Positions 2,384-20,315 of a stretch of 20,315 nucleotides of DNA are shown piece after piece; within the stretch, counting starts at the first letter, position 1; each line of letters starts with the position of its first letter. Source of the DNA: Thermoplasmata archaeon (lineage in GTDB: Archaea > Thermoplasmatota > Thermoplasmata > Thermoplasmatales > GCA-001856825); assembly GCA_021793855.1 (NCBI GenBank), contig JAJYRY010000007.1, positions 1 to 20,315 on the forward strand, given 5' to 3'. Position numbers and translations under genes: made by a program. Under the pieces are notes generated by a model. The model had not been told where the DNA came from. It ran no database searches and saw nothing but the letters and a program-made list of their open reading frames with translations.

Positions 2384-3358
2384 CTAAAGCGTCTCCCATA
2401 CATCATCAGAGTAATCTCTTGATAAGTGTAGTACCACTGGAATGCCTGCTCGCTTATAATAAATAAAGGACTCAGAAATGTGTTTCATAGCATCGAATTT
2501 CTGAACCAAAACTATTATTCGAATGCTGTTGTCTACTTTTTTGAAAAAAACTTTGAATCTCTTGAGACCCATGGAATTTAAAACGTTCGATATCACACTG
2601 AATATCCCTATATTCATATCCTCAAAACGCATTTCATAAATTCGAGAACCTGAAGATACTGGTTTGAGACCTGTTTTTGTCTCACTTGTTCCGTAGAATA
2701 TCACCTTGTTGAATATCGAGGTCGAAAAAACCGCCGCAGATTCTGCAACCGCCCCTTCGTCGAAAAGAGATCTTGCAACTTTACCCTTTACGTTAGAATA
2801 TGGGATGGAATAAACCAAGACTCGCAGAGGGAATTCTCTATTCTTATGTTCCAGATGCGAAATGAAACCGGTTGTTGGGTGTAGATATAATTCCTTGACC
2901 AAGTGTTTCAAATTAGGGCTCTTTCCAAGTATCCTAGAAAGTTGCGGGATTGCAGAATGATGGAGATGGAACCTAGCAGTGAGATTCCCCTTTTCAACAG
3001 TCAAGTCGAATGATGTGGAAGATTGCACTTTGTCCAACGAGGTCAAGAGTTCGTAAAGGGATTCTTCTATTGTTACCGTGGAAATCAGATATCCTTCATT
3101 CTCTGTAGTTGAAGAGAGATACTTTGCAGAGCTACCTTCATTTTCTAAATTTTCTTTTGGAATATATACCAAAAGATATTTGTCATCCCCCTTTAGTTCT
3201 ATGAAAGCCTGAAAAATTAGATCCACGGCTTTAGAAAGGCTGAAAACTCGGTCATCTTTGTTGAAAATTACTTTGCATTCGGTATCGAGCTTCTTGTCTA
3301 GCTCTTTCAACAACATCTTGTTTGATAAATCGGTTAAATTAATACTTATCGAATTCAT
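2384..3358 (-). CDS. Uncharacterised protein with internally duplicated domain (paralogue of 3412-4254)
   Basis: I do not recognise this 324-residue protein. It is soluble, with no signal peptide or membrane helix. It can be read as two copies of one domain. Copy 1 opens with LDKKLDTECKVIF (20-32) and ends with NLTARFHLHHSAIPQL to about residue 160. Copy 2 opens near EFPLRVLVYSI (175-185) and ends with SIRIIVLVQKFDAMKHIS to about residue 312. The closing part of each copy has the pattern beta strand, hydrophobic helix, then a short lysine-containing segment ending in L-L-H/L, as in both halves of the divergent neighbour. The ATG at 3358 lies 27 bases from the centre of a TATA element shared with that neighbour, which fits a leaderless mRNA. 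No catalytic motif is evident. A sensor or partner role near the KaiC-like ATPase is a guess from context. Confidence 0.75.
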   Translation of the reverse strand: MNSISINLTDLSNKMLLKELDKKLDTECKVIFNKDDRVFSLSKAVDLIFQAFIELKGDDKYLLVYIPKENLENEGSSAKYLSSTTENEGYLISTVTIEESLYELLTSLDKVQSSTSFDLTVEKGNLTARFHLHHSAIPQLSRILGKSPNLKHLVKELYLHPTTGFISHLEHKNREFPLRVLVYSIPYSNVKGKVARSLFDEGAVAESAAVFSTSIFNKVIFYGTSETKTGLKPVSSGSRIYEMRFEDMNIGIFSVISNVLNSMGLKRFKVFFKKVDNSIRIIVLVQKFDAMKHISESFIYYKRAGIPVVLHLSRDYSDDVWETL

Positions 3359-3411: not shown

Positions 3412-4254
3412 ATGATTGACGAGGTAGACAAGAGACTTGATATGTCCCTTAGTTTCTCTTTTCCTATCGAAAGTTATGTTCTATCGACTATAGTCAAGGA
3501 AAAACCGGTACCTATCAATGTCTACCACATAAAGAGTGAACAGTACATTACCTTCTTTCTTCAAGAGCTATCGGCAAACGACAGAATGATGCTAGAACCG
3601 TTAAATCCCGTGAAAATAGGAGACTCGCTGGAGATTACTGAAAGGATAACGAACCCATTGGTGAACATGATTGCTGATAATGTGGGACTGGTCCCGACAC
3701 TTGCGGATGGAGAACTCTTTACAACTGGCAAGATTATGTTCGCGAACTTCAGATTTCATTCATCCCAGATGAAGGGAGCTGCCGAATTGTTAAGAAAAGT
3801 GGTCTCTCTCGGTGCCGATCTTTCAGGGCTAGGCCTTAGCGAATCAAAAGGTTTGGTAGAGATGCTAAATGAGATCGACAAGAGATTGCCGTTATCGTTA
3901 ATAACGTTCTCTTTCGTGGAGCACAGCGACACGAATTTTATCCTTGAGTGGAGAAATTTGCATCAACTTCCTCAGAACTTCATCAAATACGATCTTGATG
4001 GAGACCTTTCTGTCACTAATTTCATTCAATCAAATGGACAAACGTCCGCCTTCTTAGCAGCCGTAGACAAGGAACATATACCTCTTGGAACCTACTTAGA
4101 ATATCATAATAAGGAAAGAGTGCAAGCGTATGTGTATGTTCCAAGTATGCTAGTTAAACCTTTGTTAGTGCGACTGTATGAAACGACAGAAAGGGTTAAG
4201 GATTTCAAATTAGAGGGCATTAGAAATTACAAAGATGAAAACAAGAACATTTAG
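3412..4254 (+). CDS. Uncharacterised protein with tandem duplicated domain (paralogue of 2384-3358)
   Basis: The 280-residue product is soluble and not recognised. It shows a clear internal duplication: DKRLDMSLSFSF at 6-17 recurs as DKRLPLSLITFSF at 156-168. The end of the first half (KIMFANFRFHSSQMKGAAEL to about 142) matches the end of the second (RVQAYVYVPSMLVKPLLVRL to about 270) in hydrophobic pattern and in the closing D-L/F-x-L-x-G-L/I. The same pattern occurs twice in the divergent neighbour, so the two genes look like products of one family that spread by duplication. No enzyme motif or DNA-binding helix-turn-helix is evident. ATG 3412 is probably leaderless (TATA centre 27 bases upstream). 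The KaiC-like gene follows in the same direction after 159 bases with its own TATA box. Expression is likely linked to 2384-3358 through the shared promoter. Confidence 0.78.
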   Translation: MIDEVDKRLDMSLSFSFPIESYVLSTIVKEKPVPINVYHIKSEQYITFFLQELSANDRMMLEPLNPVKIGDSLEITERITNPLVNMIADNVGLVPTLADGELFTTGKIMFANFRFHSSQMKGAAELLRKVVSLGADLSGLGLSESKGLVEMLNEIDKRLPLSLITFSFVEHSDTNFILEWRNLHQLPQNFIKYDLDGDLSVTNFIQSNGQTSAFLAAVDKEHIPLGTYLEYHNKERVQAYVYVPSMLVKPLLVRLYETTERVKDFKLEGIRNYKDENKNI

Positions 4255-4413: not shown

Positions 4414-5514
4414 ATGTTCAGTGTGCCTCCGATAACTGTAATGACCGGTGACTCCGTTGACATAGCGAGGATAGCTGAAGAATTCGAGCTGGACAACGAA
4501 TTCACATGGGGTAGCAACGTTAAACTTACAGGTAAATCAGGGGCATTACACAAGTTCGATTTAGTTGTCACTTCTAAGAAAGACGAAAACGTTAGGATTG
4601 CAGTTTTACATAGTATATCCGAAGATCTTGTCAGTGACATAATGAAATTCAATGCAATTGCGAGTGATTGTGGAATATCTCTTAAAGCGCTGGTCGTTGA
4701 GAAAGATCTAGACGATACTGAGGTAAATCTTACACACATGTATAACATAGTCACAATAGATCAAAGACGGAGCTTGAAGCCGAAGTCGGATATTTTCGGT
4801 GTCAAAGAGCTTGATGAAACCCTTGGCGGTGCGATGAAACGGGGGAATGTTTACATGGTATCTGGAAAAACTGGCGTTGGTAAAACGACTACTGCCACTC
4901 AATTCTTGGTTCAGGGTGCCAGGTTGGGGGAGAAGGGGGCAATAATACTTACAGATACTAGAGGAGCAGAATTCATAGCAAATGCCAAGACCTTCACATT
5001 TGGTTTTGAAGGGTACTACAAGGAGGGAACTATTGAAGTTATAGAACTCTCGGACAGAATTAGGGAACTGAAGGAGGATGTCTTAGAGAGTCTGAAAAGC
5101 AGGTCGAGATATATTGAAAAACTCACTGGTGAGATAAACAGAATTGTAATTGAATCAAACATCTCCCGTCTTGTTATTGACCCAATTACCCCGATGATTG
5201 TCGAAAATGATGATTTTGTTAACCAGTTCGTTATGTCGCTTGCAATCCCACACACTTACTTGCTTGTCACGAGTCCGGTTATGAAGAGCGACGTGAGCAT
5301 GTATGGAATCGAAGAATACTTTGTTTCTGGTATCATTAAATTAGAGATGGACGATCCCTCCGCGGGAATCAGAAAAGCTTCAATAGTGAAAATGAGAGGT
5401 GGTTCATACAGTCCTTATCCATTCTATTTCAAGATTACAACTAAGGGAATAATAGCCTCCCAATCTGAGCGGGACCTCAAGGGCGGTTCAATTTTCAAGA
5501 GAGTTGAAGCATAG
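4414..5514 (+). CDS. KaiC-like RecA-superfamily ATPase with N-terminal nuclease-fold-like domain
   Basis: The 366-residue protein has two parts. Residues 1-115 carry TGKSGALHKFD (39-49), recalling the first half of a PD-(D/E)XK restriction-endonuclease fold. The strand that should hold (D/E)-X-K reads NVRIAVLHSI (59-68) with no acidic-Lys pair, so the domain is probably catalytically dead. Residues 126-350 form one KaiC-type ATPase domain: FGVKELDETLGG, Walker A GKTGVGKTT (151-159), Walker B RLVIDPIT with Asp256, and the closing KMRGGSYSPYPFYFKITTKG, characteristic of KaiC-like proteins. Where KaiC has its catalytic Glu pair after the beta strand, this protein reads ILTDTRG (178-184), so ATP hydrolysis may be slow or altered. 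There is only one ATPase domain, unlike circadian KaiC. Family members often act in signalling or archaellum control; the target here is unknown. It converges on the next gene with 41 bases between stops. Confidence 0.85.
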   Translation: MFSVPPITVMTGDSVDIARIAEEFELDNEFTWGSNVKLTGKSGALHKFDLVVTSKKDENVRIAVLHSISEDLVSDIMKFNAIASDCGISLKALVVEKDLDDTEVNLTHMYNIVTIDQRRSLKPKSDIFGVKELDETLGGAMKRGNVYMVSGKTGVGKTTTATQFLVQGARLGEKGAIILTDTRGAEFIANAKTFTFGFEGYYKEGTIEVIELSDRIRELKEDVLESLKSRSRYIEKLTGEINRIVIESNISRLVIDPITPMIVENDDFVNQFVMSLAIPHTYLLVTSPVMKSDVSMYGIEEYFVSGIIKLEMDDPSAGIRKASIVKMRGGSYSPYPFYFKITTKGIIASQSERDLKGGSIFKRVEA

Positions 5515-5555
5515 GTTCAGATATTCTCAGGATCTTTACACTGACATGGGAAGAA

Positions 5556-8150
5556 TCACTTCTTGAACTTCAGATACTTGCCACTCCTAACGTATCGTCC
5601 TTCTCTCACAAAAAGGCTTCTGTTCTCGCGTTTGTTCGAGAGGGCTAGGACCACGCCCAGAATTCCGACTGCAACAGCCCCTATTATTCCGATGAGCAAG
5701 AAGTTTGGTGGTACCAGAGAGGCCACTGCAGATGCAGATTTACCGGATACGATTAGAACTCCGGTTACGTGTGAGCCAGTATAGCCAAATGGAGGATGGA
5801 TAGTATAATTGTATGTGCCGTTCGGTTCGTGGAAGATGACAAAACTTTTCGTAGTGTTGACTGTAACGTAGACAGGAATGTGGTTGAATGTACTGCCATG
5901 GAGTGTTACAGACCATTGTTTCCCTGAGGTAATTCCCGACTGAGTTATGTTGATCAGATAGGTTACCATGATCCACTTGACTGGCTGAACCACAGAGCTT
6001 CCGTTAACGGTCACATTCCCGAGGTAATCAGTCGTGGAAAAGCCAGAAAGAGATTGGATTGAATATTCATAGCTCCCGTTGTTCAGTTTGAAGTTTATGC
6101 TATCATTTGTGGAAATTCTGGTTACATTGTTTATAGTAATTGACCAGAAAGTTCCGTTCGTTAAGCCAGTCTCAGAGAATGTCAACGAGTAAGTCACAAG
6201 GATGAAAGTCACTTGAACTGGAAACCTAGACGAGTTTGGCACGAACGATCCCTCAAATGGGTTAGGGCGATACAGTTTGTTGCCGCTTGAGATGACGTAG
6301 GAGTAAGTTCCATTTATCTCGACGAATGAAATCTTTCCTTCCGATGATGAGTAGCTTCCACCCGAACTTACATTCACGTACCACGTATTTCCGTAGGGCA
6401 GTTTTTGTTCCTCGAAAGTGACATTCATGAGTTCATTGAATACTATTGTTAGGCCATTTAGATTGGAGCCGCTGACAGTGAACGAGCCTGATTCAGTAAC
6501 CGTGGAAGGAATGTACCATTTGGTGCTAGCTGAGACAGAATATGAATAAGTTTGATTTGGTTCCCAGAATGTTATAGTGTTTGTGGAAGAGACAAAAGTT
6601 TGGATGTTGGATATGTTAAGATACCACCTTATTGAGGAGGATGGAATCGGAAGGCCAGTTTCAACGAAAGTAATCTGGTAAAGCCGAAGGAACCGGACCG
6701 CCTCAGAAACCGCATTGCCCGAAACGGTGAAATTGCCGGTCGAGGGAGACGGGCCGAACGTTTGGACTCCACTTGTGATGTTGTAGCCGTAGGTCCCATT
6801 GGGCAAATTGAGTGTGATCGTCGGCGAGAACGAAGAGCCTGAGCCGTTGCTGTATCCAGAAGCTGCATTCCCCATGGCTCTTAGGAACCACTCCGTGTTG
6901 GCGGGGAGTCCGCTTTCAGAGAATTCTACTGGATACAATTTCAGGGAAAATACGATGGAGACGTTGATAGACTTTCCGTTTACCTGAACATTTTCCGAGA
7001 AGGGTGTAGGGTAATATTCTTTGAATCCTGTTGCGATTGAAACAGAATAAGTGTCGTTGTACAATTTCGCAACTATGGCATTCGAGCTGGAAGATAGAGA
7101 GGTTTGACCTGTAATGTTCACGTACCAAATCGTTTTCAAAGGAAGCCCTGTTTCTGTGAATGTCACAGAATACAGAACGGGATTGAAGGTGATTAGAAAC
7201 GATTGGTTATTGCCATCCACAATGATATTGAAATACGATTGACTGGGAGTGTAGACCTTGTTACCTGTTGCAATGGTGATGGTGTAAGTTCCGTTAGGTT
7301 CACCGAAAACTATGGAACTCCCCACAGCAGAATGAGTCTGGCCATTTGTGAGGTTTGCATACCACTTTGTATTTACCGGGAGCCCTGACTCTTCAAAAAT
7401 AACGAAATAGGTCTTGAACACAGCTGTAATGGTGCTAATGCTAGAAGAAACGGCCGTAGGCGGACTTGGAGATCCATTAATAGTTCCCGTATCCGTCACG
7501 GATACGTTGACGTAATATGTGGCGTTTCCTGCAGGAGTTAGGGAGTAGGTGGAGGCTGTAGTCGAAGTCTTAGTCCCGTTCAGGAACCAGAGGTAGGAAT
7601 AGGACCCCGTACCTCCAGAGGGAGTTGCTGTGAAAGTGATTTTTGTTCCCACGTTCACCTTCTCACTGCCTGGAGAAATGCTCACGGAAACTGCGCTGTC
7701 TACTGTGACTGTAACTACAGATGACTTAACGGTAGTTCCACTATTCGTGACGGTCACATACACAGTGTTAGATCCAGTAGAACTTGGATCGAAGGTGTAG
7801 GTACTGCTGTTCGTCCCAACGGAGTTTCCGTTCAGGAACCAGGCGTAAGTGTAAGTCAAACCCGACTGATTTGTTGTTACGCTAAAGTCCACCGACTGCC
7901 CAATATCGATCGTCGCACTAGTCGGTGAAATAGTGACTGAAAATGTGGAGAAGCTATGAATTCCAAGACCAGCACTACCTGAACGACCGGTGCTCATGCC
8001 CACGTAATTCACATTTGATGGAATCGGATTCTTAGTACCCCCGGAACCGTATGAATTTGCAATGCTAGAGAGTCCGGAAACCAATACTAAAGTAATCACT
8101 ATGAAAACAAACACTGTTTGTTTCCACCTGGCGCTATATTCCGTCCTCAT
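5556..8150 (-). CDS. Membrane-anchored surface protein: 2 PKD/Ig-like modules and 7 ESGLP repeats
   Basis: The 864-residue product is extracellular and probably held in the membrane. Residues 9-31 form the signal or N-terminal membrane helix (QTVFVFIVITLVLVSG). Two PKD/Ig-like modules follow at about 70-152 and 155-245. Then come seven repeats of about 75-85 residues up to about 812, of the type YxVTFxExGLPxxTxWYVN...NGTYxYxI...VxGxxxxxxVxF. The closing helix is NFLLIGIIGAVAVGILGVV (from 816), followed by a basic tail containing SLFVREGRYV. Asn-X-Ser/Thr sequons are frequent, fitting heavy glycosylation. These repeats are abundant in Thermoplasmata surface proteins; their function is not established. 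A longer reading from TTG 8168 would add six residues before the signal sequence; ATG 8150 fits better. A TATA-like element at 8181-8192 predicts a very short leader. The C-terminal half is paralogous to that of the giant protein upstream. Confidence 0.88.
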   Translation of the reverse strand: MRTEYSARWKQTVFVFIVITLVLVSGLSSIANSYGSGGTKNPIPSNVNYVGMSTGRSGSAGLGIHSFSTFSVTISPTSATIDIGQSVDFSVTTNQSGLTYTYAWFLNGNSVGTNSSTYTFDPSSTGSNTVYVTVTNSGTTVKSSVVTVTVDSAVSVSISPGSEKVNVGTKITFTATPSGGTGSYSYLWFLNGTKTSTTASTYSLTPAGNATYYVNVSVTDTGTINGSPSPPTAVSSSISTITAVFKTYFVIFEESGLPVNTKWYANLTNGQTHSAVGSSIVFGEPNGTYTITIATGNKVYTPSQSYFNIIVDGNNQSFLITFNPVLYSVTFTETGLPLKTIWYVNITGQTSLSSSSNAIVAKLYNDTYSVSIATGFKEYYPTPFSENVQVNGKSINVSIVFSLKLYPVEFSESGLPANTEWFLRAMGNAASGYSNGSGSSFSPTITLNLPNGTYGYNITSGVQTFGPSPSTGNFTVSGNAVSEAVRFLRLYQITFVETGLPIPSSSIRWYLNISNIQTFVSSTNTITFWEPNQTYSYSVSASTKWYIPSTVTESGSFTVSGSNLNGLTIVFNELMNVTFEEQKLPYGNTWYVNVSSGGSYSSSEGKISFVEINGTYSYVISSGNKLYRPNPFEGSFVPNSSRFPVQVTFILVTYSLTFSETGLTNGTFWSITINNVTRISTNDSINFKLNNGSYEYSIQSLSGFSTTDYLGNVTVNGSSVVQPVKWIMVTYLINITQSGITSGKQWSVTLHGSTFNHIPVYVTVNTTKSFVIFHEPNGTYNYTIHPPFGYTGSHVTGVLIVSGKSASAVASLVPPNFLLIGIIGAVAVGILGVVLALSNKRENRSLFVREGRYVRSGKYLKFKK

Positions 8151-8180
8151 AGCAACATTTGCCCACAAAATATCTTGATG

Positions 8181-8324: not shown

Positions 8325-11300
8325 TCACCTCTTCTTCTTGGTGCGCCCAATCTTGAGGAATCTCCCTTCCCTCTTGAAAAGGCTCTTCTTGTTGCCAATG
8401 TAAAGCAACAGAAAAACAACAATCACTATCGCCAAGGCAACGGTGACGATCCACAACAGGAGGTAGTTCGGAAGGGCCGCTATCTTCAGGTTAGTCGAGA
8501 CAGCGCTCCCAGCTACTAGAATGGTCGACTTGGCGGGAGTAGCCTTGTACCCGTTGGGAAGAGTGACAACATAAGAATAAGTACCATTGGTGACGTTGAA
8601 AGTTATTGAGCTGGAAGTGGAGTTGAAGGTCTGGTTGATTTCCTGTCCTCCCTGTTTAGTGGTCAAAGTGACAGACCAAGTGGCTCCCGCGGCCAGACCG
8701 GATTCTGATATGGTTATCGGGTATGTCACGGCTGTCCATGTCACATACTCTTTAAAATCGCTCCCGTTGACAACAACGGTCACATTGTACTCCTGAGTCC
8801 GAAATCCTGGGATTCCTCCAATTATGAATTCATATGTTCCATTAACTTCTTTGAAGTACTTAGGACCAGATGAGGAATTGTTGTTATTTCCAAGGAATAC
8901 ACTCCATACTGTCCCTGTAGGCAGACCACTCTCTATGAAAGAAACATTATAGTAGAACGGGGAAAATGTAACATGCTCCACTGCCGATTGACCATTGACT
9001 GTGAGAGTCCCGCCGGGAGAATAGAATGTCTTGTCGGCTGTGGCTACAGTATAATAATAGGTTCCATTTGGGAGCTCCACACTAATGCTTTGACTACCTG
9101 AAGAGTATGCCTGTCCATTCGAAAGGTTTACGAACCATAAATAACCGCTTGGAAGAACCGACGATGGAGACTGTTCAAATATGACTGTATAAGTCAGGAG
9201 AGTGAAGTTGACATTTTCTGAGACAGGACCTCCTGAAACAATAAAAGATGACGAATATACCACCGGCTTGTACTGTTTGTTCAAAACGGCTAAGGTGTAG
9301 TGATATGTGTTGTTCATCTCCGAAAATGTTAGAACGCTCTGCGTCGTAGAATAGGACTGACCGTTAGACATATTCACGTACCATTCAGTACCAGACTTCA
9401 ACCCGTACTCTGAAAATGTCACCGCGTACACAACCGGCAGAAAGACCAGTGGCTGCGATATCTCTGTCCCATTCACCACAAATATACCGGTGATCTGTGA
9501 AGACGGCTTGAAGGACTTGTTGCTGGTTGAAATGCTGTAATAATAGGTACCGTTCGGTTCAAGGAAAGATAGATTAGCTGAAGAGGAGGTATAGGAGTAT
9601 CCTCCTGAAATATTCAGAAACCATTTCGCTCCAGTCGGAAGCCCGGTTTCGGTGAAACTCACGCCGTAGATGACCTTTGCGAGTACTGTGACGCTTAATA
9701 TGTTGGAATGGACGTAAGCAGGATCTGTTTTAGTATCCGTCACATTCACATAGAATAGATAAATACCCGGTGTGGTTGCGGATGAGGTCAGGAAGTCATA
9801 GGTAGCGTTGGTGGCTCCTGGAATCATTACGAATGAGCTAGTTCCCGGTAGCTGTTGGAACCACTGATATGAGAAAGTCCCAGTTCCACCGCTGACTGAT
9901 ACATTGAGTACCGATGAGTTACCCCTGTTGATCACTGAAGAGAGGGGGTTAGAGAGTGAAAGAGAACTGGACAACTGATAATTGACGATGAAGGTCGAAG
10001 TGATTGACGCGGTAACACCCCTCGCATCGGTGACCATGAATTTCACGGAATAATTTCCTTCAGTTGTAAATGTTATGGAAGAACCAGAGATCGTATAATC
10101 ACCCGATGCAGAATTACCCGAAGGATAAAGAGTGACCAACCACGAATACTGGTAAGGTGTAGTTCCACCTGCAACGTTTCCGTAGATCGTCTGGCCGACG
10201 TCCGTCTCAATAGTACCAGCCACCTGGAACGAGACCTTCGGGAGTGGATTGACCACAACCGTGATCGGAGATGCGGAAGCTGTCGAGGTGCCCTGACTCA
10301 CGTTCAGATATATCTTGTACAATCCGGGGTTGGACACGTTCAGAGTGTAGGAGCTGGAAGTTCCGACAGTACCCGAAACTCCACTTATCCCCCAAGAATA
10401 GCTGTAAGACCCGCTACCTCCAGTTACGGTCGCCTGGAACACCTGAGCGTGGTTTACATCTAGAGCGGTGATACCTGAACTTGGATAGGAAGATATCGAA
10501 GCAGTCAGGCTGATAACTGCAGTTACTTCGACATTATAGTTGGATGATGTGGCTTGAGAGAAAGAGTCCTTTACTGTTGCACTTACCGTATAGTTCCCCG
10601 ACTTGCTGAACGTCAGCTGGTTTCCGGAAGTGGAATAGTCTCCGGCTGCAGATCCCCCGCCTTTAAGTGTAACGGACCACGTGTAAGTGTAAGGCGATGT
10701 TCCGTACCCAGAGGTGACAGAAGCCGTGACGGGGTTTCCTATATTTGTTGTTGTTGGGCTTATGGATATCGAACCTGAGGAAATATCGTTATTCACCGTC
10801 ACTTCCTCGTAGGCAGATTGTGTATCTCCGACAACAGTATCCTTTACGTACAGAAACACATAAAACGTCCCTGTCGTATTGAAGTAAAAAGTGTGTGTCT
10901 GGGGGGATGACTGAGCGGTATAACCAGAACTCGGAGGTGAGGCGGTGGATGTATTTTGTTTCACCCATTGATATACATACGTACCACTTCCACCGGAATA
11001 GCTACCGGTGAATGACTGTGCCTGGCCCGCGTCTATCGTCGGGGAAGTCGCTGGGGAGGAGATCTTGACAATCACGAGGCTGCTTGAATAAATCTTGACC
11101 GTTGTGTTGTTGTAAGCAACTTTCCCATCAGCGTCTCTCACCTTCAGACTGACTGTGTAGTTGCCAGAGTTACTGAGACCGATCTGGTGTCCGTACCTTT
11201 CAAAGGAGGATAAAGAACTATTTTGGGGAGTTATGGTCCAGGTGTAGTTGTAAGGAGACGTACCATAGCCAGATTTAACTGTGGCGTTGATTAATCCATC

Positions 11301-11939
11301 TATGACAGTGGATGTCGGTGATATCATTATAGAGGCAGTGGTTGGAAGATTGTTTACATACACATTGACAGAGGTTGAGTAGCTTGCGGCAGAGTATGCA
11401 CTATCTGTGATCACAAGATAATAGGTATAATTGCCAGCTACTGTGGGTGTTAAGTGGAGTGAAGGAAGCGGCTGGCCGCTTGTAACTGTACCTGACGCTC
11501 CACTGATCTTGTCGCCACTCGCTGTCCCGTTGCGGTACCACTGATAGGAATAAGGAGCGGTACCGCCACTGATTGTGGGTGTTGATGTCAGGGTAGTACT
11601 GTTCCCGAGATCTAAGGAAGGGGGAGTAGCGGTAACCGTCGTAGATACAAGAAGGGGGGAATTTACGCTTATGGTGAGGCTCTCACTTGTCGTTGAGCCG
11701 AACTTATCGACTACCTTTATTGTTACAGAGAACGTTCCAGTGCCTTTAAACGTTATTACATTGTCGATGTAGCTAGAATTGCTACTACCGAGTTGATAGT
11801 TTTTGAAGCTGGTACTATTGGAGGAATATGCGATTGTCCACGTGAATGTGTAGGGCGGAGTCCCCGTTCCTGCTTGAACGTAAACCGCCCAGGAGGTATT
11901 TTCATCCAGTGTTATTGACGTTCCTTGGAAGGCATTAGA
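8325..11939 (-). CDS. Giant PKD surface protein, C-terminal part (after frameshift)
   Basis: This frame is open from stop 8325 up to and past an A10 run at 11940-11949. It has no ATG, GTG or TTG between the run and GTG 11414, and no signal peptide, so it is not an independent gene start. GTG 11414 falls inside a PKD module and is unlikely to be used. The roughly 1,204 residues contain about eight PKD/Ig-like modules. The two between 11415 and 11939 include GTSITLDENTSWAVYVQAG and GGTAPYSYQWYRNG and would be missed if the gene began at 11414. Five ESGLP repeats follow (SFTETGLPTGAKWFLN is the first), then the membrane helix NYLLLWIVTVALAIVIVVFL and a basic tail with SLFKREGRFLKIG. The module type continues from the 11912-18802 frame, so I read this as the downstream half of one gene. 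If the frame is never restored it is a dead remnant. Confidence 0.8.
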   Translation of the reverse strand, partial: SNAFQGTSITLDENTSWAVYVQAGTGTPPYTFTWTIAYSSNSTSFKNYQLGSSNSSYIDNVITFKGTGTFSVTIKVVDKFGSTTSESLTISVNSPLLVSTTVTATPPSLDLGNSTTLTSTPTISGGTAPYSYQWYRNGTASGDKISGASGTVTSGQPLPSLHLTPTVAGNYTYYLVITDSAYSAASYSTSVNVYVNNLPTTASIMISPTSTVIDGLINATVKSGYGTSPYNYTWTITPQNSSLSSFERYGHQIGLSNSGNYTVSLKVRDADGKVAYNNTTVKIYSSSLVIVKISSPATSPTIDAGQAQSFTGSYSGGSGTYVYQWVKQNTSTASPPSSGYTAQSSPQTHTFYFNTTGTFYVFLYVKDTVVGDTQSAYEEVTVNNDISSGSISISPTTTNIGNPVTASVTSGYGTSPYTYTWSVTLKGGGSAAGDYSTSGNQLTFSKSGNYTVSATVKDSFSQATSSNYNVEVTAVISLTASISSYPSSGITALDVNHAQVFQATVTGGSGSYSYSWGISGVSGTVGTSSSYTLNVSNPGLYKIYLNVSQGTSTASASPITVVVNPLPKVSFQVAGTIETDVGQTIYGNVAGGTTPYQYSWLVTLYPSGNSASGDYTISGSSITFTTEGNYSVKFMVTDARGVTASITSTFIVNYQLSSSLSLSNPLSSVINRGNSSVLNVSVSGGTGTFSYQWFQQLPGTSSFVMIPGATNATYDFLTSSATTPGIYLFYVNVTDTKTDPAYVHSNILSVTVLAKVIYGVSFTETGLPTGAKWFLNISGGYSYTSSSANLSFLEPNGTYYYSISTSNKSFKPSSQITGIFVVNGTEISQPLVFLPVVYAVTFSEYGLKSGTEWYVNMSNGQSYSTTQSVLTFSEMNNTYHYTLAVLNKQYKPVVYSSSFIVSGGPVSENVNFTLLTYTVIFEQSPSSVLPSGYLWFVNLSNGQAYSSGSQSISVELPNGTYYYTVATADKTFYSPGGTLTVNGQSAVEHVTFSPFYYNVSFIESGLPTGTVWSVFLGNNNNSSSGPKYFKEVNGTYEFIIGGIPGFRTQEYNVTVVVNGSDFKEYVTWTAVTYPITISESGLAAGATWSVTLTTKQGGQEINQTFNSTSSSITFNVTNGTYSYVVTLPNGYKATPAKSTILVAGSAVSTNLKIAALPNYLLLWIVTVALAIVIVVFLLLYIGNKKSLFKREGRFLKIGRTKKKR

Positions 11940-14900
11940 TTTTTTTTTTGCTCCTGAGCTAGTGTTTGATGGCCCTGCATCATTTGGGATGAAGTTTGTT
12001 GATTCGGTGATTGACCGGGTTGAAGGACTATGATTGGTGATGGGTTGACTGTTATGAGCACCGAGGATGATGCGACCACTCCTACGGCATCAACGATCGT
12101 CAGTGTTATGGTGAAATTACCCGTATTGTTGAATGTGAAAGTATTCCCAGATTGCGTTATACCCTGTGCTGATGGATATGACCAGATGTATGTATAGGGC
12201 TGGGTCCCGTTTGCAGTCGTGTTGGTAAAGGTAACGCTGTTGCCGGTGTCTATGGTAGTCTGGGAAGCCGGGGAAGCTGTTAGGGTTACCGTTGGAAGTG
12301 CATTGACCGTGACTGTTATAGAATTTGAAGATGACACAGCTTTGCCGAGGGAATCTGTGACCATGGAGGTTACCATATATTCACCAGTAAGTGAGAAAGT
12401 GATCACATTTCCGGTGACAGAATAAGCACCTATCTTGATTCCGCCCCCGATTGAGGTCACGGAATAGCTTATGGTATAAGGGGTCAATCCACCGGCAACT
12501 GAATTGGAGAACGTGACTGACTGTCCCTTGTCGATGATTGTCGGTGTAATTGAAGAAATCGTGATAGAAAGTTGAGAATTGACCGTTATGGTGGCAACAT
12601 TTGAGGCGCTGATTCCGTCTGCATCTATTATTGTCACAGTCGCAGAATAAGTACCGGCGGTATTGAAAGTGACCTGGTTTCCAGATGCGGAATAATCACC
12701 TGAAGCAGAACCTCCTGAAAGAGTCACGGACCATACGTACGTGAAAGGAGAGGTACCATATCCAGGCTGCATTGTCGCAGTTATAGGGCTGCCCACTTCC
12801 GTGGTTGTTGGCGAGATAGAGATCGCAGAAGATGCTGGAGGATTGGTAACAGTAACAGTAATGGGAGAGGATGTTCCGAATATCCCTGTGTTGCTAACCT
12901 CCGTTACAGTTACAACGAAGTGCCACTGGCCGATCGCAGTTAACGTGCCAGTATTGATATTTTCAGGCAGTGTACTGAACTGGTTCGTGGTAGCAACGAC
13001 TGAGTAGGTTGTAGAACCGGGCGATTCTTCCTTGAGTTGGGCAGTATAAGGTCCAGTCCCGCTGACAGCTGTTATGACGATATTAGTTGCTGTACCACTG
13101 TCCATAATTGGTGGCGCAGAAACGGTGACGTTCAGTGAAGAGTAAACGATGACGGGTTGAGTATTTACGGTAACTGCTGAAGATGCGAATCCGCTAGCTC
13201 CTAACGAGTCATTGAAATAGAGCTTTACTGTGAAACTTCCAGTGTTCTGGAAAGTGAACGTATTACCAGACTGAGTGATCCCCGCACTGCCTGGATATCC
13301 CCAACTATAAGTCATTGGTCCCGTGCCCCCAGAGGTTGTGTTGCTGAAAGTGACCGAATTGCCAGCATCGATACTTACTGTAGATGGAGAGATTGTAACT
13401 GATGGGATGTTATTGACAGTTATTGTTTTGGAAAGACTTGCTATTTCACCCGCCGAATCCTTCACTGTAACGGTTGCAGAATAAACACCGGCAGTGTTAA
13501 AGGTCGCACCGTTACCTGACGTGGTGTAATCCCCTGAGGCTGAGCCAGATGGGTAGAGCGTAATGGTCCAGCTGTATGAATAAGGTGATACTCCCGATCC
13601 GGTTGAAACTGAAGCCAAAATTGGATAGCCTACGTCAGTAGTTGTTGGAGTTATTGTTATAGATGATGATGTTAAGCTCCCTACCACCGTTACAACAACT
13701 GAAGCCGGAGTGCTCACGAATCCAGTTGAATCGACGACTGTGACATAGTAAGTGGTCGTGATAGATAGTGATGGGGTTGCGAACGGATTCCCGCTGTAAA
13801 CCAGATTGGAAAGCCCAGAGTCAGAATACCACTTGAACGAATACCCTGTCCTCGATCCTCCTGCGGCAGTTGCTGTAAGAGTCGCACTCTTGCCGCTTCC
13901 GATAGTAACGGGAAGCACCGTCACGCTTGGGTCGGAATTCACAGTGATTACCGCATTACTAGATTTTGCAGTGGGCGTGGGATTAGACCCAGAGATAACA
14001 CCGGTATCGGTGAAACTGAAATAATAAGTGTTGTTGGATTGAGGACTAAACTTGTATGACGGTGTCTTTCCTATTCCAGAGCTTACCAACGTTCCAGAAG
14101 CGGTATAAAGAGACCACGAAAAGCTGGAGGAACCGCCAGTTATCGCGGATGTCAGGGTTATTGATTTTCCAAGGTCTATCATTGTAGACACGGGTTGGAT
14201 CGAGATAGAGGGGGGGGCATAGACGGTAACAGTAATTGGACCAGAAGTGGACAGGAGACCATCGTAGGAGGAAATTGTAAGGTAGAAAACATAGGTCCCC
14301 TTCCCCGCCGGTGTGAATGAGTTAGTAATGACAGTCCCAGAAACAGCCCCACCTGATTTGCCAATTGTTGATGTGCTGGATGTGCCGTTAAGGTACCATT
14401 GATAGCTATAAGGTGAAATCCCTCCACTTATGGTCGGTGTGACGCTGAGAGTTACACTCTCCCCAAGGTCTAGGTAGCCGCTCCCTGATGAGGGCGTGTT
14501 GTAACTGAAAGATACACTCAGGGTTGCTGTATGTACTTGCACCGTTACTGTCGCGGAAATGGTGTATGGTAAAGTGGTTCCGGTGTCTGTCACGTTTAAC
14601 CAAATTGTATAGCTGCCTACTGTTGATTCAATGAAATCGTAGGAATTCGAAACGCTTACCAGATTAGAACTTCCACCCAAGGTCCAGGAGTATGAAAATT
14701 GACCGCTACCTCCCGATGTTGTGGAAGTGAAAACCTGAGACTGTCCCAATGGAACCGTCGCTGATGACGGGCTTATACTTACTGTGAGTGCGGGATCCAC
14801 CGTGATTGCGACAGTGGCAGAGTTCAACTTCGCAGCAGGCGAAGCCGTTTGGGCAACCCCGGTGTCCGTGAATTTGAAGTAGTATGAATTAGTAGCTGCA

Positions 14901-17900
14901 GGAGAGACCGGGTATGAGGCAGTAGGTCCCGTGCCAGAAGCCACAAAAGTATTAGACGAGGTGTATAGTGACCACGAATATTGTCCGGTTCCACCGGTTA
15001 CGGTGGAAGAGAGTGAGATCACTTGACCGCTGTCGATCTTTCCAGAAGAAGGTTCAGTTAAGATGGCCAAGGCTGGGTCCACCGTAACGGAAATCTTGCC
15101 TGAGGAGGCTGTTGCAGCGGGTGTCGAATCAGACGTAGTGCCTGAGTCTGTGAAAGTCACATATACCCCTGTATCCACAGACGAAAGCGTGTATGTAGCA
15201 GTCGGACCGGTTCCAGAAGCACCAGTTATTGGACCAGAAGAATCATACCACTGCCACGTGAAGGAGCCCGTGCCACCTGTAGCCGTTGAGGTAACAACAA
15301 TCGATTGCCCAGAATCTATCGTTGCTGACTGAGGTTGGACTGTTATTGAAGGATTAGAATCCACCACTATAAGTACTGAAGCAGTAATAACGAGATGCAG
15401 GGTAGTTCCCGTATCCGTGACGTTGAGCCACACTTTGTAGGTGCCGGGAGTGGTTTCTGAGAAGGAGTATGTGGATGACGTTCCAACTACGGTGGAACTG
15501 CTACCGATGGTCCAGGAGTAGATGTATGAGCCCGAGCCTCCACTCACTGTAGGCGTCAGTAGCATGCTTTGGGAAGAATCTATCGTTGCAGTCGACGGAG
15601 AGATAGTTACTGAAGGAGCCGCATTAACGATTATAGATATAGAAATCGGAGAGAGAGCATAATTAGGAGAGGTTCCTGTATCGGTCACGTTCAGCCATAT
15701 TGTGTAAGTTCCAATCGTCGATTCTGAAAAAGTATAGCTCGTTCCCGTACCCAAGATTGATTTACTTCCACCGAGCGTCCATGAATACGAGAATTGACCA
15801 GAGCCCCCTTGTGAAGTAGTAGTAAGAGGCAAGGACTGTGATTCATATATTGTCGCAGATGAGGGAGAGACGGAAACAGAAGGGGCAGAGTTCATGGTAA
15901 TAACTGCTACATCAGAAGTAACCGATTGCCCCGTTGAGTCCTTGAAAACAACATAATAACTTCCCGCTTGAACCGGGGTGAAGGTTGCTGTTGTACCGCT
16001 GCCTGATGCATCAGATATGGGGGTTCCACTATTAGTGGTTCCGGTATACCATTGCCAGGTAAATGACCCACTGCCGTACTCGACCATGGATGTCAGGGGA
16101 ATGGTGAATTGTTGGTCGGGATCAATGGAATAAGATTGGGGCTGCTCTGATATCAGAGGAGGTGAAACTACGGTAACAGTGACGTAAGAAGTTGAAGACG
16201 CTCCTGCAGCATCAGTTACCGTAAGGGTAACTGTATAAGTATTTGGCATCGTGAAAGTAAAGGTATTCCCGGGATTTGTTGACTGTGTCCATCCGGACGT
16301 TGGACTGACAGTATATGAATATGCGAAAGGAGAAGTTCCACCCTGAGTCTGATTTGTAAATGTTACAGAATTGCCGGAATCAATTTGAGTGACAGGGGAC
16401 GAAAGGGCAACGGATAGCTGGGGGCTGACCGTAACAGATATGGGAGTGGAATAAGCCACCGTTGACGAGCTGTCTGTAACCTTCAACTCAAAGAGCCAGG
16501 TCCCAGTAGTCGAAAGAGTACCGGTTGAGATAATGGAAGCAGAGAGATCGTTTGAAGTTGCAGGGAAAGAATTGCCAAGATCTACGTAGCTGGCGAAATT
16601 TGGTGGTTCTTCCAACCATTGACCAGTGTAGGGAGGAATGCCGCCATTTATAGATACCGCGGTGAGAGTGGTGGATTGTCCTTCATCTATGTTTGAAAAT
16701 CCATAAACCGCAACTGTTGCACTCAATAGAGCATTGATGGTGACCGTTTCAGTGAACGATACGGATACACCACTTGAGTCGGTTACAGTCACTGTGACGT
16801 CATAGGTTCCAGAAGTACTGAATGTTATCTGGTTTCCGGAAGTACTATAGCCGCTAGGGACAGGTTGCCCTGATGATGTGGAAACTGTCCATGAATAACT
16901 GAAGGGTGCTATCCCATAACCAGACTCAACTGTCGCATACAACGGAGTTCCAACTGTTGCCGTGGTTGGCGATATTGATATCGCAGAAGTCGTCAGAGGC
17001 AAAGACGGGTGCAGGACTATTATCTCTGCAGTGGCCACAGGGGCTAGTTTATGATTTTGGTCCTTAACAAACAGATAGAGATAATAGATCCCGTAGCTGG
17101 ATGGAATGTATGTGAAATTAGCTTTTGGAAGCGAGGTAGTGTTTTCCCTAGAAAATGAATGATGATCTTGTTGCCAATACGGGAAATTGGAAGTCACATA
17201 CCACGCGTATGTGTAAGGAGAGGCGCCCCCTGTCCAATTTGCATAAAAGGTTAGTTGTTCTCCAAGATCCGCACTTACCGTAGTTGGAGTAAGCGTGACC
17301 TGTGTGACACTGGGTTGATGACTCTCTCGTGAGTATATCTGTGATACGGCCATTACCCATGCTGAAGAACTCGCGCTGTTTACGAATAAGTAGACATAAT
17401 ACTGTCCGTTGTCACTGGGCGCGTAACTGAAAGTGGCAGAATTCCCATTAGTATAGTTGTAGGAATTCAATTGTAGGATGTACGGAGTGCTTATAGGCTC
17501 CTTTTTAACGACCATCCAGGCGTATGAGTACCCCGCCGTTCCTCCACTCCAGTTCCCAGTGAAGGTTATAGGAACTCCAGAGTCAGAGTCTGCATTGACA
17601 GAAGATGGAGATATTGTTACTGAAGTAACCCCTGGCGTGCCAGGGAGGAGAATTATTTGTGAATACCCGACCAGGAAATCTTTTTGGTTGTTATGTCCAT
17701 TGCTATCTGTCGGTGTCAAGTAGAGATACAAGTAGTAGATTCCATATGAACTATAAATGGGGTTAAAAGTGAAATCTGCAGACGTCGCATGGGTTGTATT
17801 GAAAGAGTTAATTTGATTGAACTCTTCCTTATAATACGACTTCCAGTTTATTGGGCTGTTTGTTATTTCCCAGGCGTAGTTGTAGGCATTAAAACTACCA

Positions 17901-18802
17901 GTCCAATTCCCTACAAAAGTAATGGGTTGACCGGTGTACATAACCGAAGTAGTTGGAGATAGGGTCACACTTTGAAGACCGGTTTGATAATTTTGGGAGC
18001 CCTGATCGTTTCCGTGTCTGTCTCCATTCTGATTATTCGTTACAGTAATTATTGAAGTGGCATTCAAACCAGCACCTGTGCCCGTTCCATTCACAGTCAG
18101 AAGAATCTTATAAGTTCCAGAGTGGTCGGGTGCGAAACTGAAACTGGCACCATTTCCGGTTGTGGAGCCTGTGTAATAGGTCAAATTGTGGTGGTTATCG
18201 TGAGAAAGGAATACCTGCCAGAGATAGGTAAATGGAGATGCCCCGCCCATCCAGCTACCCTGGAAATTAATGGACTGCCCTATGTAGAGACTGGATGAGG
18301 TAGGGGAAAGAGTGATAGAAGTGAGAGTATACGACTGGGTCAAATTGAATGTACTTCCAGTACTGGCATGGTCTAGTGATGTTATATTACTTTGATTCGT
18401 TGAAATCGCTGAGGCATTTGAACCAGGACTCGATGGAACGTTCAACTGGGATTGTAAATACTTTGAATTCTGTGCTAGATTAGAGGGAGCAGACAATCCG
18501 GATTTTGATAAATTAAGGTTTGTGGTTTGAGGGACAGCCGAAGCGGGCCATGTCTTAACCACCTTTCCGCTTTGAACTTTCTCGTAATAACTAGTGTTTA
18601 AACCGCCCACCCTGGTAGTCACTAGGTAGACGTGACTCCCACCTGATTTGGATTGGGAACTGGCACTAGGATAATAGACAGCACCAGAAAACGAAGAAAC
18701 AATCATAACAGTGACTATGATAAGCGCTACAGCTACGACTAATAACTTTGCGTACTTTTTGTATGACACTGGATTGGAAATTGCCGAAGAGTATAAAAAC
18801 AT
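11912..18802 (-). CDS. Giant PKD-repeat surface protein, N-terminal part
   Basis: The frame encodes 2,296 residues from ATG 18802. Residues 19-38 (KLLVVAVALIIVTVMIVSSF) form a signal or anchor helix. A Ser/Asn-rich linker leads to about 22 tandem PKD/Ig-like modules of 85-115 residues, recognised by YxYxW near the start, a GxYxxxVxVTD strand and a closing ITV(N/D). Modules 1-4 (about 158-585) are longer and carry His-rich loops such as HDNHHN (201-206) and DRHGND (261-266). After the last module comes a Gln-rich linker ending in AQEQKK, then eight unrelated residues and the stop. That tail begins exactly at an A10 run and looks like out-of-frame reading. Joined to the 8325-11939 frame the protein would be about 3,492 residues. 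The role is presumably cell surface, adhesion or glycan binding; this is inferred from domain type. A TATA-like element at 18829-18837 lies upstream. Confidence 0.88.
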   Translation of the reverse strand: MFLYSSAISNPVSYKKYAKLLVVAVALIIVTVMIVSSFSGAVYYPSASSQSKSGGSHVYLVTTRVGGLNTSYYEKVQSGKVVKTWPASAVPQTTNLNLSKSGLSAPSNLAQNSKYLQSQLNVPSSPGSNASAISTNQSNITSLDHASTGSTFNLTQSYTLTSITLSPTSSSLYIGQSINFQGSWMGGASPFTYLWQVFLSHDNHHNLTYYTGSTTGNGASFSFAPDHSGTYKILLTVNGTGTGAGLNATSIITVTNNQNGDRHGNDQGSQNYQTGLQSVTLSPTTSVMYTGQPITFVGNWTGSFNAYNYAWEITNSPINWKSYYKEEFNQINSFNTTHATSADFTFNPIYSSYGIYYLYLYLTPTDSNGHNNQKDFLVGYSQIILLPGTPGVTSVTISPSSVNADSDSGVPITFTGNWSGGTAGYSYAWMVVKKEPISTPYILQLNSYNYTNGNSATFSYAPSDNGQYYVYLFVNSASSSAWVMAVSQIYSRESHQPSVTQVTLTPTTVSADLGEQLTFYANWTGGASPYTYAWYVTSNFPYWQQDHHSFSRENTTSLPKANFTYIPSSYGIYYLYLFVKDQNHKLAPVATAEIIVLHPSLPLTTSAISISPTTATVGTPLYATVESGYGIAPFSYSWTVSTSSGQPVPSGYSTSGNQITFSTSGTYDVTVTVTDSSGVSVSFTETVTINALLSATVAVYGFSNIDEGQSTTLTAVSINGGIPPYTGQWLEEPPNFASYVDLGNSFPATSNDLSASIISTGTLSTTGTWLFELKVTDSSSTVAYSTPISVTVSPQLSVALSSPVTQIDSGNSVTFTNQTQGGTSPFAYSYTVSPTSGWTQSTNPGNTFTFTMPNTYTVTLTVTDAAGASSTSYVTVTVVSPPLISEQPQSYSIDPDQQFTIPLTSMVEYGSGSFTWQWYTGTTNSGTPISDASGSGTTATFTPVQAGSYYVVFKDSTGQSVTSDVAVITMNSAPSVSVSPSSATIYESQSLPLTTTSQGGSGQFSYSWTLGGSKSILGTGTSYTFSESTIGTYTIWLNVTDTGTSPNYALSPISISIIVNAAPSVTISPSTATIDSSQSMLLTPTVSGGSGSYIYSWTIGSSSTVVGTSSTYSFSETTPGTYKVWLNVTDTGTTLHLVITASVLIVVDSNPSITVQPQSATIDSGQSIVVTSTATGGTGSFTWQWYDSSGPITGASGTGPTATYTLSSVDTGVYVTFTDSGTTSDSTPAATASSGKISVTVDPALAILTEPSSGKIDSGQVISLSSTVTGGTGQYSWSLYTSSNTFVASGTGPTASYPVSPAATNSYYFKFTDTGVAQTASPAAKLNSATVAITVDPALTVSISPSSATVPLGQSQVFTSTTSGGSGQFSYSWTLGGSSNLVSVSNSYDFIESTVGSYTIWLNVTDTGTTLPYTISATVTVQVHTATLSVSFSYNTPSSGSGYLDLGESVTLSVTPTISGGISPYSYQWYLNGTSSTSTIGKSGGAVSGTVITNSFTPAGKGTYVFYLTISSYDGLLSTSGPITVTVYAPPSISIQPVSTMIDLGKSITLTSAITGGSSSFSWSLYTASGTLVSSGIGKTPSYKFSPQSNNTYYFSFTDTGVISGSNPTPTAKSSNAVITVNSDPSVTVLPVTIGSGKSATLTATAAGGSRTGYSFKWYSDSGLSNLVYSGNPFATPSLSITTTYYVTVVDSTGFVSTPASVVVTVVGSLTSSSITITPTTTDVGYPILASVSTGSGVSPYSYSWTITLYPSGSASGDYTTSGNGATFNTAGVYSATVTVKDSAGEIASLSKTITVNNIPSVTISPSTVSIDAGNSVTFSNTTSGGTGPMTYSWGYPGSAGITQSGNTFTFQNTGSFTVKLYFNDSLGASGFASSAVTVNTQPVIVYSSLNVTVSAPPIMDSGTATNIVITAVSGTGPYTAQLKEESPGSTTYSVVATTNQFSTLPENINTGTLTAIGQWHFVVTVTEVSNTGIFGTSSPITVTVTNPPASSAISISPTTTEVGSPITATMQPGYGTSPFTYVWSVTLSGGSASGDYSASGNQVTFNTAGTYSATVTIIDADGISASNVATITVNSQLSITISSITPTIIDKGQSVTFSNSVAGGLTPYTISYSVTSIGGGIKIGAYSVTGNVITFSLTGEYMVTSMVTDSLGKAVSSSNSITVTVNALPTVTLTASPASQTTIDTGNSVTFTNTTANGTQPYTYIWSYPSAQGITQSGNTFTFNNTGNFTITLTIVDAVGVVASSSVLITVNPSPIIVLQPGQSPNQQTSSQMMQGHQTLAQEQKKNLMPSKERQ
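11940..11949 (-). other. A10 homopolymer at the frameshift in the giant surface gene
   Basis: The minus strand reads C-A10-TCTAATGCC. With ten A's the frame from 18802 gives Q-K-K-N-L-M-P and stops at 11912. With eleven A's it gives Q-K-K-K-S-N-A-F-Q-G and continues through PKD modules to 8325. A run of eight would also restore the frame. The run is a slippery A-AAA-AAA type sequence. Sequencing error, slipped-strand phase variation, transcriptional slippage and -1 ribosomal frameshifting are all possible. Confidence 0.85.
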
Positions 18803-19118: not shown

Positions 19119-20315
19119 GTGAAGGAAATTCGAAAGAAAATCACTCTTTTATCGGCACTGGCAGTGACATCATTTGTTCTTTTCTCTGCTCTAAGTTCTT
19201 CATTAATCATGACTGAGGGTACAACTGCTAACTTAGCTACTTCTCCAGTGGCAAACAGCTTGAACTACAACAGTTCTGCTTTGCCATCTGTTGCCCAAGC
19301 TCATATCGCCTATGAAAAAGGTCCAGGGAGCACTTTTGGTTCGTGGCAAAGCATTGGAAATCAACCCTTGGGTGAATCTCCATTTGTAGAGAGCCCAGTT
19401 GCCAAATTTACAGTGAACTTCACTGCTACCAATAAACCGAGCGGAGAGAGCTGGAGTGTCTATGTATATACAGATCTTGCACTTTCTGCACCAGATCTCC
19501 CTCTATACAACACTATCTATCATGAGTCAAATGGACTGATCTTTTCAAGTAGCGCAACATCCTCTAGTATCTCCGGGTCAATTGGAGCGGGTACATATTA
19601 TTACTATGCGGGTCCATCCTCAACTCTTTCTGGCCCTTATAAATTAATTATATCTGGGAACAGGTCTGTTTCAGTCCTTTTCCCAGTACTCCATAGCGCA
19701 ACATTTACTGAAACTGGCCTTCCCCCAGGAACCATATGGACCGTTTATGCTTCATCTAGCCAATCTAAAGGAAATATGACTATCCTATCAGAATCATCCA
19801 GCAACAATACCATATTAGCTTCTCTTCCCGACGGCTACTATAGTTTCGCATTTGGAACCGGTTCCACTGTGATTGAGTCCAACTCGTTTGCAATTTCTGG
19901 ATCGAACATAGACAAACAGATAAGTTTTCCAACTCTTTATCCAACCGTATTCCAGGAATCTGGCCTGACTGCTGGTTCATCCTGGCAACTATTTGGAGAA
20001 ACCACATCCCCTAATGCTCATTCGCTGAACACTTTCTTTGTCGATACAGCAAGTCAGTCTTCAATTACGATTTACCTTCCCGACGGAGTCTATTATTATC
20101 AGCCAACATTTGAACGGACTACTTTCACTGAACCTTCGTCCATCTATGTAAGTGGAAGCAGTCAGAATGTATCAATCAGCTTTCCCTCATTGACACGCTT
20201 TACAATTGATACTACGGGATTAGCTACAGGATTAAGTTGGCAGATCTCTGTTTACTCCAGCGACGGAACGATCTACGCTCAGAATTCCAGTTACAATTCA
20301 AACTTGACTCTGGAG
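19119..20315 (+). CDS. Secreted ESGLP-repeat surface protein, N-terminal part (runs off window)
   Basis: An open frame of 399 codons from GTG 19119 reaches the right edge of the window without a stop, so the protein is incomplete here. The N-terminus is a classic signal sequence: basic KEIRKK at 2-7, then a hydrophobic stretch ITLLSALAVTSFVLFSALSS to about residue 31. A Ser/Thr/Asn-rich segment follows. Repeats of the ESGLP type begin around residue 193 (SATFTETGLPPGTIWTVYA), 273 (TVFQESGLTAGSSWQLFG) and 360 (FTIDTTGLATGLSWQISV), with a looser copy near 104 (NFTATNKPSGESWSVYV). The spacing is about 80-87 residues and each copy has an LPDG-Y-Y turn in place of the PNGTYxY of the minus-strand proteins. 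No PKD module is seen in this part. An ATG at 19117 leads straight to a stop and cannot be the start. Confidence 0.85.
   Translation, partial: MKEIRKKITLLSALAVTSFVLFSALSSSLIMTEGTTANLATSPVANSLNYNSSALPSVAQAHIAYEKGPGSTFGSWQSIGNQPLGESPFVESPVAKFTVNFTATNKPSGESWSVYVYTDLALSAPDLPLYNTIYHESNGLIFSSSATSSSISGSIGAGTYYYYAGPSSTLSGPYKLIISGNRSVSVLFPVLHSATFTETGLPPGTIWTVYASSSQSKGNMTILSESSSNNTILASLPDGYYSFAFGTGSTVIESNSFAISGSNIDKQISFPTLYPTVFQESGLTAGSSWQLFGETTSPNAHSLNTFFVDTASQSSITIYLPDGVYYYQPTFERTTFTEPSSIYVSGSSQNVSISFPSLTRFTIDTTGLATGLSWQISVYSSDGTIYAQNSSYNSNLTLE

Follow-up and report, generated by a model that had tools for sequence, protein, structure and literature searches.

The window, by which we mean the whole stretch of 20,315 nucleotides from a Thermoplasmata archaeon of acid-mine type analysed here, carries two long reverse-strand frames that overlap by about 178 bases (Table 1). 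The upstream frame, ORF1, ends in QKKNLMPSKERQ immediately before its stop codon, and the second frame is bounded on its upstream side by an in-frame stop at 12092-12090. The part of the second frame that is homologous to the C-terminal region of relatives extends from 11948 to 8325 and comprises 1,207 aa, with a GTG at 11414 as its first start codon past a run of ten A's (A10). This run is the only slippery sequence seen within the overlap of the two frames. The initial annotation had placed the meeting point of the frames at the A10 run, which is borne out (11949-11940), and its sum was correct, 10,478 + 1 = 10,479 = 3 x 3,493 codons. It had also anticipated that a standard annotation would leave 11415-11911 blank, in agreement with the position of the GTG. 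Its description of the second frame as open from the run holds, but the frame is in fact already open from 12089.

Directly after the second frame follows a separate surface-protein gene at 5556-8168 (-) with SGLP-type repeats, and the related loci L001-L004 have open frames of 865-876 codons at the same place. Farther along, two divergent Pfam Ta1207 genes lie beside a KaiC-type ATPase gene (2384-3358 (-), 3412-4254 (+) and 4414-5514 (+)). At the opposite end, an open frame of at least 399 aa (19119-20315 (+)) runs off the window edge and gave no Pfam match at E 0.001.

Table 1 Features of the two frames, their junction and the adjoining surface-protein gene in the window.
Feature	Positions	Strand	Remarks
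ORF1, N-terminal part of giant PKD/Ig-repeat surface protein	11912..18802	-	2,296 aa
N-terminal hydrophobic segment (signal peptide or signal anchor), ORF1 residues 16-44	18671..18757	-	hydropathy
Gln-rich inter-domain linker	11942..12022	-	QKK at its end
A10 run, proposed slippage site	11940..11949	-	frame 0 = CAA AAA AAA AAT
ORF1 stop TAA	11912..11914	-	nine codons past QKK
Second open frame	8325..12089	-	
Second frame ahead of its first start, blank in standard annotation	11415..11911	-	purifying selection
C-terminal transmembrane anchor followed by basic tail, second-frame residues 1156-1188	8385..8483	-	hydropathy
Separate surface-protein gene	5556..8168	-	870 aa; hydrophobic segments at both ends (by eye)

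The features of a membrane-anchored archaeal surface protein of the PKD/Ig-repeat type are all present, namely the modules, an N-terminal hydrophobic signal and a C-terminal anchor. Ig_3, PKD_4, PKD and PKD_3 score above the Pfam cut-off in ORF1, and a single Ig family, Ig_3, exceeds the curated cut-off in the second frame. By hydropathy, ORF1 has no C-terminal anchor and the second part, as originally stated, no signal peptide; the latter carries 42 N-x-S/T sequons in its 1,207 aa. The gene product is presumably located at the cell surface. In a fold of L002 predicted from a three-sequence alignment (mean pLDDT 58.5), the counterpart of the junction forms a low-confidence stretch (residues 101-159, block means 23-44), which follows one beta-sandwich module predicted well and precedes another predicted with less certainty.

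Comparison to relatives identifies the two frames as parts of one ancestral gene, as had been proposed, since both align with the single 3,483-aa protein P0009. Here, the ORF1 match amounts to 62% over 2,297 columns and that of the second frame to 62% identity over 1,219 columns, and P0001 (from residue 21) and P0002 (full length) both align with P0009. The proteins P0006-P0011, P0126, P0235 and P0236 cross the junction in one frame and have QKKT at the position of the A-run, i.e. in nine of nine relatives with an unbroken and recognisable junction, with a linker that is otherwise variable. These nine represent about seven separate lineages, as P0007 pairs closely with P0010 and P0235 with P0236; P0011 hardly differs from L003. 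Two more distant homologues, P0031 and L014 (G035), lack QKK at the junction position and were left out of this count, having no recognisable junction of that form. The closest named relatives of the window are MAGs labelled Thermoplasmatales or Thermoplasmata, I-plasma among them. Repeat modules are gained and lost fast in this family, and the module content differs by more than 1,000 residues among relatives (3,928 aa in P0003; 4,600 codons in L002).

Codon preference locates the switch between the frames only weakly, with a cumulative score that is nearly flat from about 12040 to 11970. We assign the junction to the A-run or the bases immediately following it, because relatives read from QKKT into the LDE/LDQ module in one frame. 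A switch farther upstream was considered in view of the odd, Q-rich last 30 residues of ORF1 and of a second frame that is open to 12089, and was rejected because the linker of unbroken relatives is similarly variable and likewise runs up to QKKT.

The break is common to a clade. Both the A10 and the break are found in L001 (MAG IK54 1579), which has 92.6% DNA identity to the window over 11 kb, and both are likewise present in G032 (L013), 99.3% identical over 5.3 kb. The same truncation is present in three database proteins: P0004, a near-copy of the window that stands for a cluster of 31 sequences (99% over ORF1 residues 1700-2296); P0005, from a cluster of 11 (87% identity); and P0003 (88% identity), which has extra modules and is about 62% identical to P0004 over most of P0004. 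All three end in QKK[NT]LM[PH]SKERQ, and the tail [NT]L[MV][PH]SKERQ, followed by the stop, is common to the window, P0003, P0004, P0005 and L001. In a tree of 15 rows, midpoint-rooted for drawing only and without P0123, P0124 and P0125, which have no ORF1 part, these five broken ORF1 sequences fall on one side of a branch with a support of 100/100. Counted from the first A of the run, the ITLD landmark is reached after 34 bases in three broken copies, but after 35 in three unbroken ones. P0003 and P0005 have a threonine after QKK and therefore at most nine A's, yet are broken, so the A10 by itself does not account for the break. The initial annotation held that orthologues ending naturally at the same Gln-rich linker, together with a separate downstream gene with its own signal peptide, would speak against a single gene; such orthologues exist (P0003, P0004, P0005 and L001), whereas a signal peptide is missing from the downstream part, whose first start codon also differs in position between the window and L001.

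The second frame is not decaying and is under purifying selection. Between the window and L001, the one DNA pair from which the values were derived, dN/dS of the second frame is 0.135 over 1,206 codons. Over the 177 codons compared between the run and the first start in the window (11948-11415), dN/dS is 0.110, with dS 0.313, dN 0.035 and a Fisher p of 5e-13 on rounded counts, and for the first 94 codons, ahead of either start, 0.142, with dS 0.248, dN 0.035 and a Fisher p of 1.9e-5. After the window's first start codon the value is 0.14, i.e. selection is as strong before it as after. The tail of ORF1 gives 0.216 over 982 codons, and dS is uneven along the gene (0.17, 0.31 and 1.02). No stops were found inside the second frame in the window, L001 or G032. 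Both frames are thus conserved as protein in the clade with the break, as would be expected of a recoded gene, as far as this one DNA pair goes. Second-frame proteins are also represented in the database by P0124 (40 sequences), P0123 (8) and P0125 (6), with no signal peptide discernible by eye at their N-termini. That the second frame is under selection, also ahead of its first start, and free of stops implies that something still joins the two frames. Allele exchange may contribute to its preservation, because P0126, an unbroken mosaic, is only 67% like the window in ORF1 and nearly identical to it in the second-frame body. Compared to 11948-8325 of the window, P0125 and P0126 are nearly identical in part and only about 50-65% identical in the rest. 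These mosaics point to recombination or chimeric assembly in the surface gene, and exchange with unbroken alleles may help to keep the second frame clean.

The three unbroken DNA copies, L002, L003 and L004, have nine A's (A9) at the same codons, CAA AAA AAA A, and these genes contain no further A-run of six or more. Neither this A9 nor the purifying selection on the second frame had been foreseen in the initial annotation. Among the window, L002, L003 and L004, the identity at four-fold sites is 0.25-0.27 in five pairs and 0.32 for L003-L004, at or near the random expectation of 0.25-0.28, and the three QKK codons are identical in all four. Within the codon columns compared, which cover the last 330 codons before the junction and all after it (L001, a near-copy of the window, left out), one of the ten other shared lysine columns is all-AAA and none of the 15 other shared glutamine columns is all-CAA. 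Lys-Lys pairs off the junction are spelled AAAAAA in none of 12 cases, counted in L002-L004 and the two frames each of the window and L001. If QKK and the codon use of each gene are taken as given, the A9 spelling in L002-L004 would arise by chance with a probability of 4.6e-4, in a test of three genes; codon counts of L003 were taken from 5263 on, its A-run count also on the whole span. Judged by these copies, the A-run is older than the break, because unbroken relatives keep the A9 in frame at the same linker.

Runs of nine or more A's are found elsewhere in these genomes of 1.3-1.7 Mb, with about 13, 14, 5, 5 and 14 distinct ones in G001, G002, G003, G004 and G032. Several are located inside open frames of unrelated genes (30 locus ids, some duplicate, of 58 matches), and A9 alone therefore does not mean programming. 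L028 (G004) and L040 (G003) are unrelated genes of this kind with in-frame A9 runs. In the unbroken genes, both alternative frames close within 1-12 codons; this looks suggestive by eye, but is not unusual for any one of them (fractions 0.14-0.48) and is not taken as support. We note that L003, the I-plasma copy, is split again at about 5263-5682 in its N-terminal repeats, into overlapping frames of 1,703 and 3,060 codons, and that no homopolymer of six or more is found at this upstream break. The split may reflect faulty assembly of the repeats or a second genuine break; being away from the A-run, it indicates that frame breaks of the family need not involve one.

Based on these comparisons, we propose that the two frames probably constitute one gene, joined in expression through slippage on the A10 run. 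Two routes would lead to the same protein. In the first, RNA polymerase would add one A to some mRNAs; runs of about nine or more A or T, as required for transcriptional slippage, are present as A10 in the window, L001 and L013 and as A9 in L002-L004. In the second, ribosomes would shift by -1 on A_AAA_AAA, a heptamer that lies in register in CAA AAA AAA AAT, and -1 is the shift that is needed: re-reading one base at the run leads into the second frame. Downstream RNA structure is one of the usual helpers of -1 shifting. Using pseudoknot-free folding, no structure standing out from shuffled sequences was detected beside the run in the window (z 0.24, with -0.09 downstream and -0.37 upstream) or in L001 (z -1.07). 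Because stimulatory RNA structure was not found, we lean slightly towards polymerase slippage, the sequence as such being compatible with either route. A Shine-Dalgarno-like AGGAG is located one base before the A10 in the window (11951-11955 (-)) and in L001 (2908-2912), positions counted by hand, and is absent in L002-L004.

Without slippage, translation would terminate nine codons past the run, yielding a soluble ectodomain of 2,296 aa without C-terminal anchor, and with slippage ORF1 would continue into the second frame, producing the full-length, membrane-anchored protein. In the unbroken relatives, slippage on the A9 would instead give rise to the short product. Our best reading is that an old slippage site in the linker divides the output of the gene, and that the anchor-less form has become the default in the clade of the window; the ratio of the anchor-less to the anchored form would then presumably be useful. 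The wider proposal, that the A9-A10 linker run is an old conserved switch by which every member of the clade splits its output into secreted and anchored protein, one branch having swapped the default, is possible but somewhat doubtful, and we offer it tentatively.

Alternatively, the length of the A-run may vary in the population at the DNA level, switching the anchored protein on and off, with the window representing an off state. A homopolymer in a surface-protein gene is the classic setting for such phase variation, according to the available text of PMC3711429, selection in the 'on' cells would explain the dN/dS of 0.11, and P0126 is an unbroken allele that combines the second-frame body with another N-terminal part. 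Against this, all five ORF1 sequences of the broken clade are in the off state, and a fused form with about 99% identity over the end of ORF1 is absent from the best 120 of 154 matches in one search and from all 36 in another. The clusters in the off state comprise 31 and 40 sequences, counted irrespective of length. Moreover, the run is constant in length, A10 in three of three broken and A9 in three of three unbroken DNA copies, few as these are, as is the distance from the run to the landmark within each group, and P0003 and P0005 are broken with the QKKT spelling of at most nine A's. We therefore regard population-level variation of the run as unlikely.

It is also conceivable that the gene has undergone fission into two separate proteins, the second of which has its own translation start, perhaps used through re-initiation downstream of the ORF1 stop. 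P0125 (75%), known from protein alone, starts just before SITLDE, near the position of the ORF1 stop, and standard annotation calls two genes. However, the second part would then be a protein without signal peptide that carries sequons and is expected outside the cell. In addition, the first start codons are at different places, codon 178 in the window and codon 94 in L001 (0-based), and selection before the first start (0.11, and 0.14 for the first 94 codons) is as strong as after it (0.14), which makes independent initiation a decidedly improbable explanation.

Hardly better, and if anything a shade less probable, is the view of the locus as a young pseudogene, in which the anchored form was lost through the break and decay of the second frame is yet to set in. 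A single origin of the break is enough on the tree, and exchange with unbroken alleles is visible. Being common to both, however, the break most simply predates the split of the window and L001, which are 92.6% identical over 11 kb and have a second-frame dS of 0.17-0.31, and neither relaxed selection nor extra stops or indels are observed: at a dN/dS of 0.135, nonsynonymous change reaches about one seventh of what neutrality would predict, and the 1,206 codons compared are free of stops. Finally, homopolymers are error-prone, but a sequencing or assembly error, as implied by the initial annotation, is very hard to credit, as the same A10 is found in the window, G032 and L001 and the same truncation in P0003, P0004 and P0005, and L002-L004 are assembled through the site in frame; on this evidence the break is real and no sequencing slip, and re-sequencing would probably give A10 again, because the break is common to a clade.

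Joining of the two frames by slippage, the reading that we prefer, has counterparts in systems characterized elsewhere, cited here from partial texts. In Thermus thermophilus dnaX, transcriptional slippage on an A9 generates a short product measured at 50% (PMC1088944). The lay-out of the unbroken relatives is shared with dnaX, with nine A's late in a coding gene and a long and a short product, and dnaX is the nearest known case for it. Unlike this bacterial gene, the locus here is that of an archaeal surface protein with slippage predicted from sequence, and in the clade of the window it is the long form that would arise by slippage. Within the archaea, -1 programmed ribosomal frameshifting has been shown by translation assay for fucA1 of Sulfolobus solfataricus (PMC8211752). 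As in fucA1, two archaeal frames overlap at an A-rich slippery site and -1 is needed, and in both cases close relatives have full-length genes that preserve the flanking sequence, but have one A fewer in the stretch. In contrast, fucA1 contains rare codons together with a putative stem-loop, whereas no structure was found here, and its break is told, in the part of the paper available, for strains P2 and 98/2, whereas the present break characterizes a clade. The magnesium chelatase genes of Methanocaldococcus and Methanococcus, which together with fucA1 come nearest among archaeal -1 sites, have a predicted -1 shift at A_AAA_AAR, and frameshifting of the cassettes in E. coli goes with the length of the A-run (PMC5009743, PMC3711429). 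They resemble the present case in their overlapping archaeal frames and in a poly-A slippery site kept by selection, but encode an enzyme of bacteria and archaea, and their cassettes were tested; the present frames, in this respect also unlike those of fucA1, belong to a surface protein of one archaeal clade and are known from sequence.

Rescue of interrupted genes has likewise been described. Transcriptional frameshifting in Citrobacter rodentium tssM was shown by experiment to give two length variants (PMC4256274), similar to the two lengths proposed here for an interrupted gene of a large protein rescued by slippage, although tssM is a bacterial secretion gene and not an archaeal surface gene. 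In Buchnera and Blochmannia, broken genes are functional through slippage on long poly(A) tracts, with 12-50% of transcripts corrected (PMC5009743); those endosymbiont genomes are AT-rich and reduced, whereas the GC content of the window here is 0.38-0.49 and runs of A9 or more are rare. Homopolymer indels were tolerated through bypass in a laboratory drift experiment (PMC3812077). A paper from 2021 considers archaeal recoding unequivocal only for selenocysteine, pyrrolysine and the -1 shift of fucA1, in the text available (PMC8037382). Among the matches listed, no title or abstract opening mentions a cellular archaeal gene using transcriptional slippage or a frame-broken surface gene of Thermoplasmatales. 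Putative S-layer genes of Iplasma are described in PMC3750248, in the available text of which the terms 'PKD' and 'frameshift' are absent. The principle is hence known, and a giant archaeal surface protein with a default swapped between sister clades is absent from the titles and abstract openings surveyed.

In conclusion, the locus represents a test case in which the two proposed forms of a surface protein would differ by the C-terminal part with the anchor. It offers an A-run that was kept while synonymous sites turned over, together with a natural contrast between broken and unbroken relatives. For genomes of this kind, automatic annotation splits one surface protein in two and loses about 500 coding bases.
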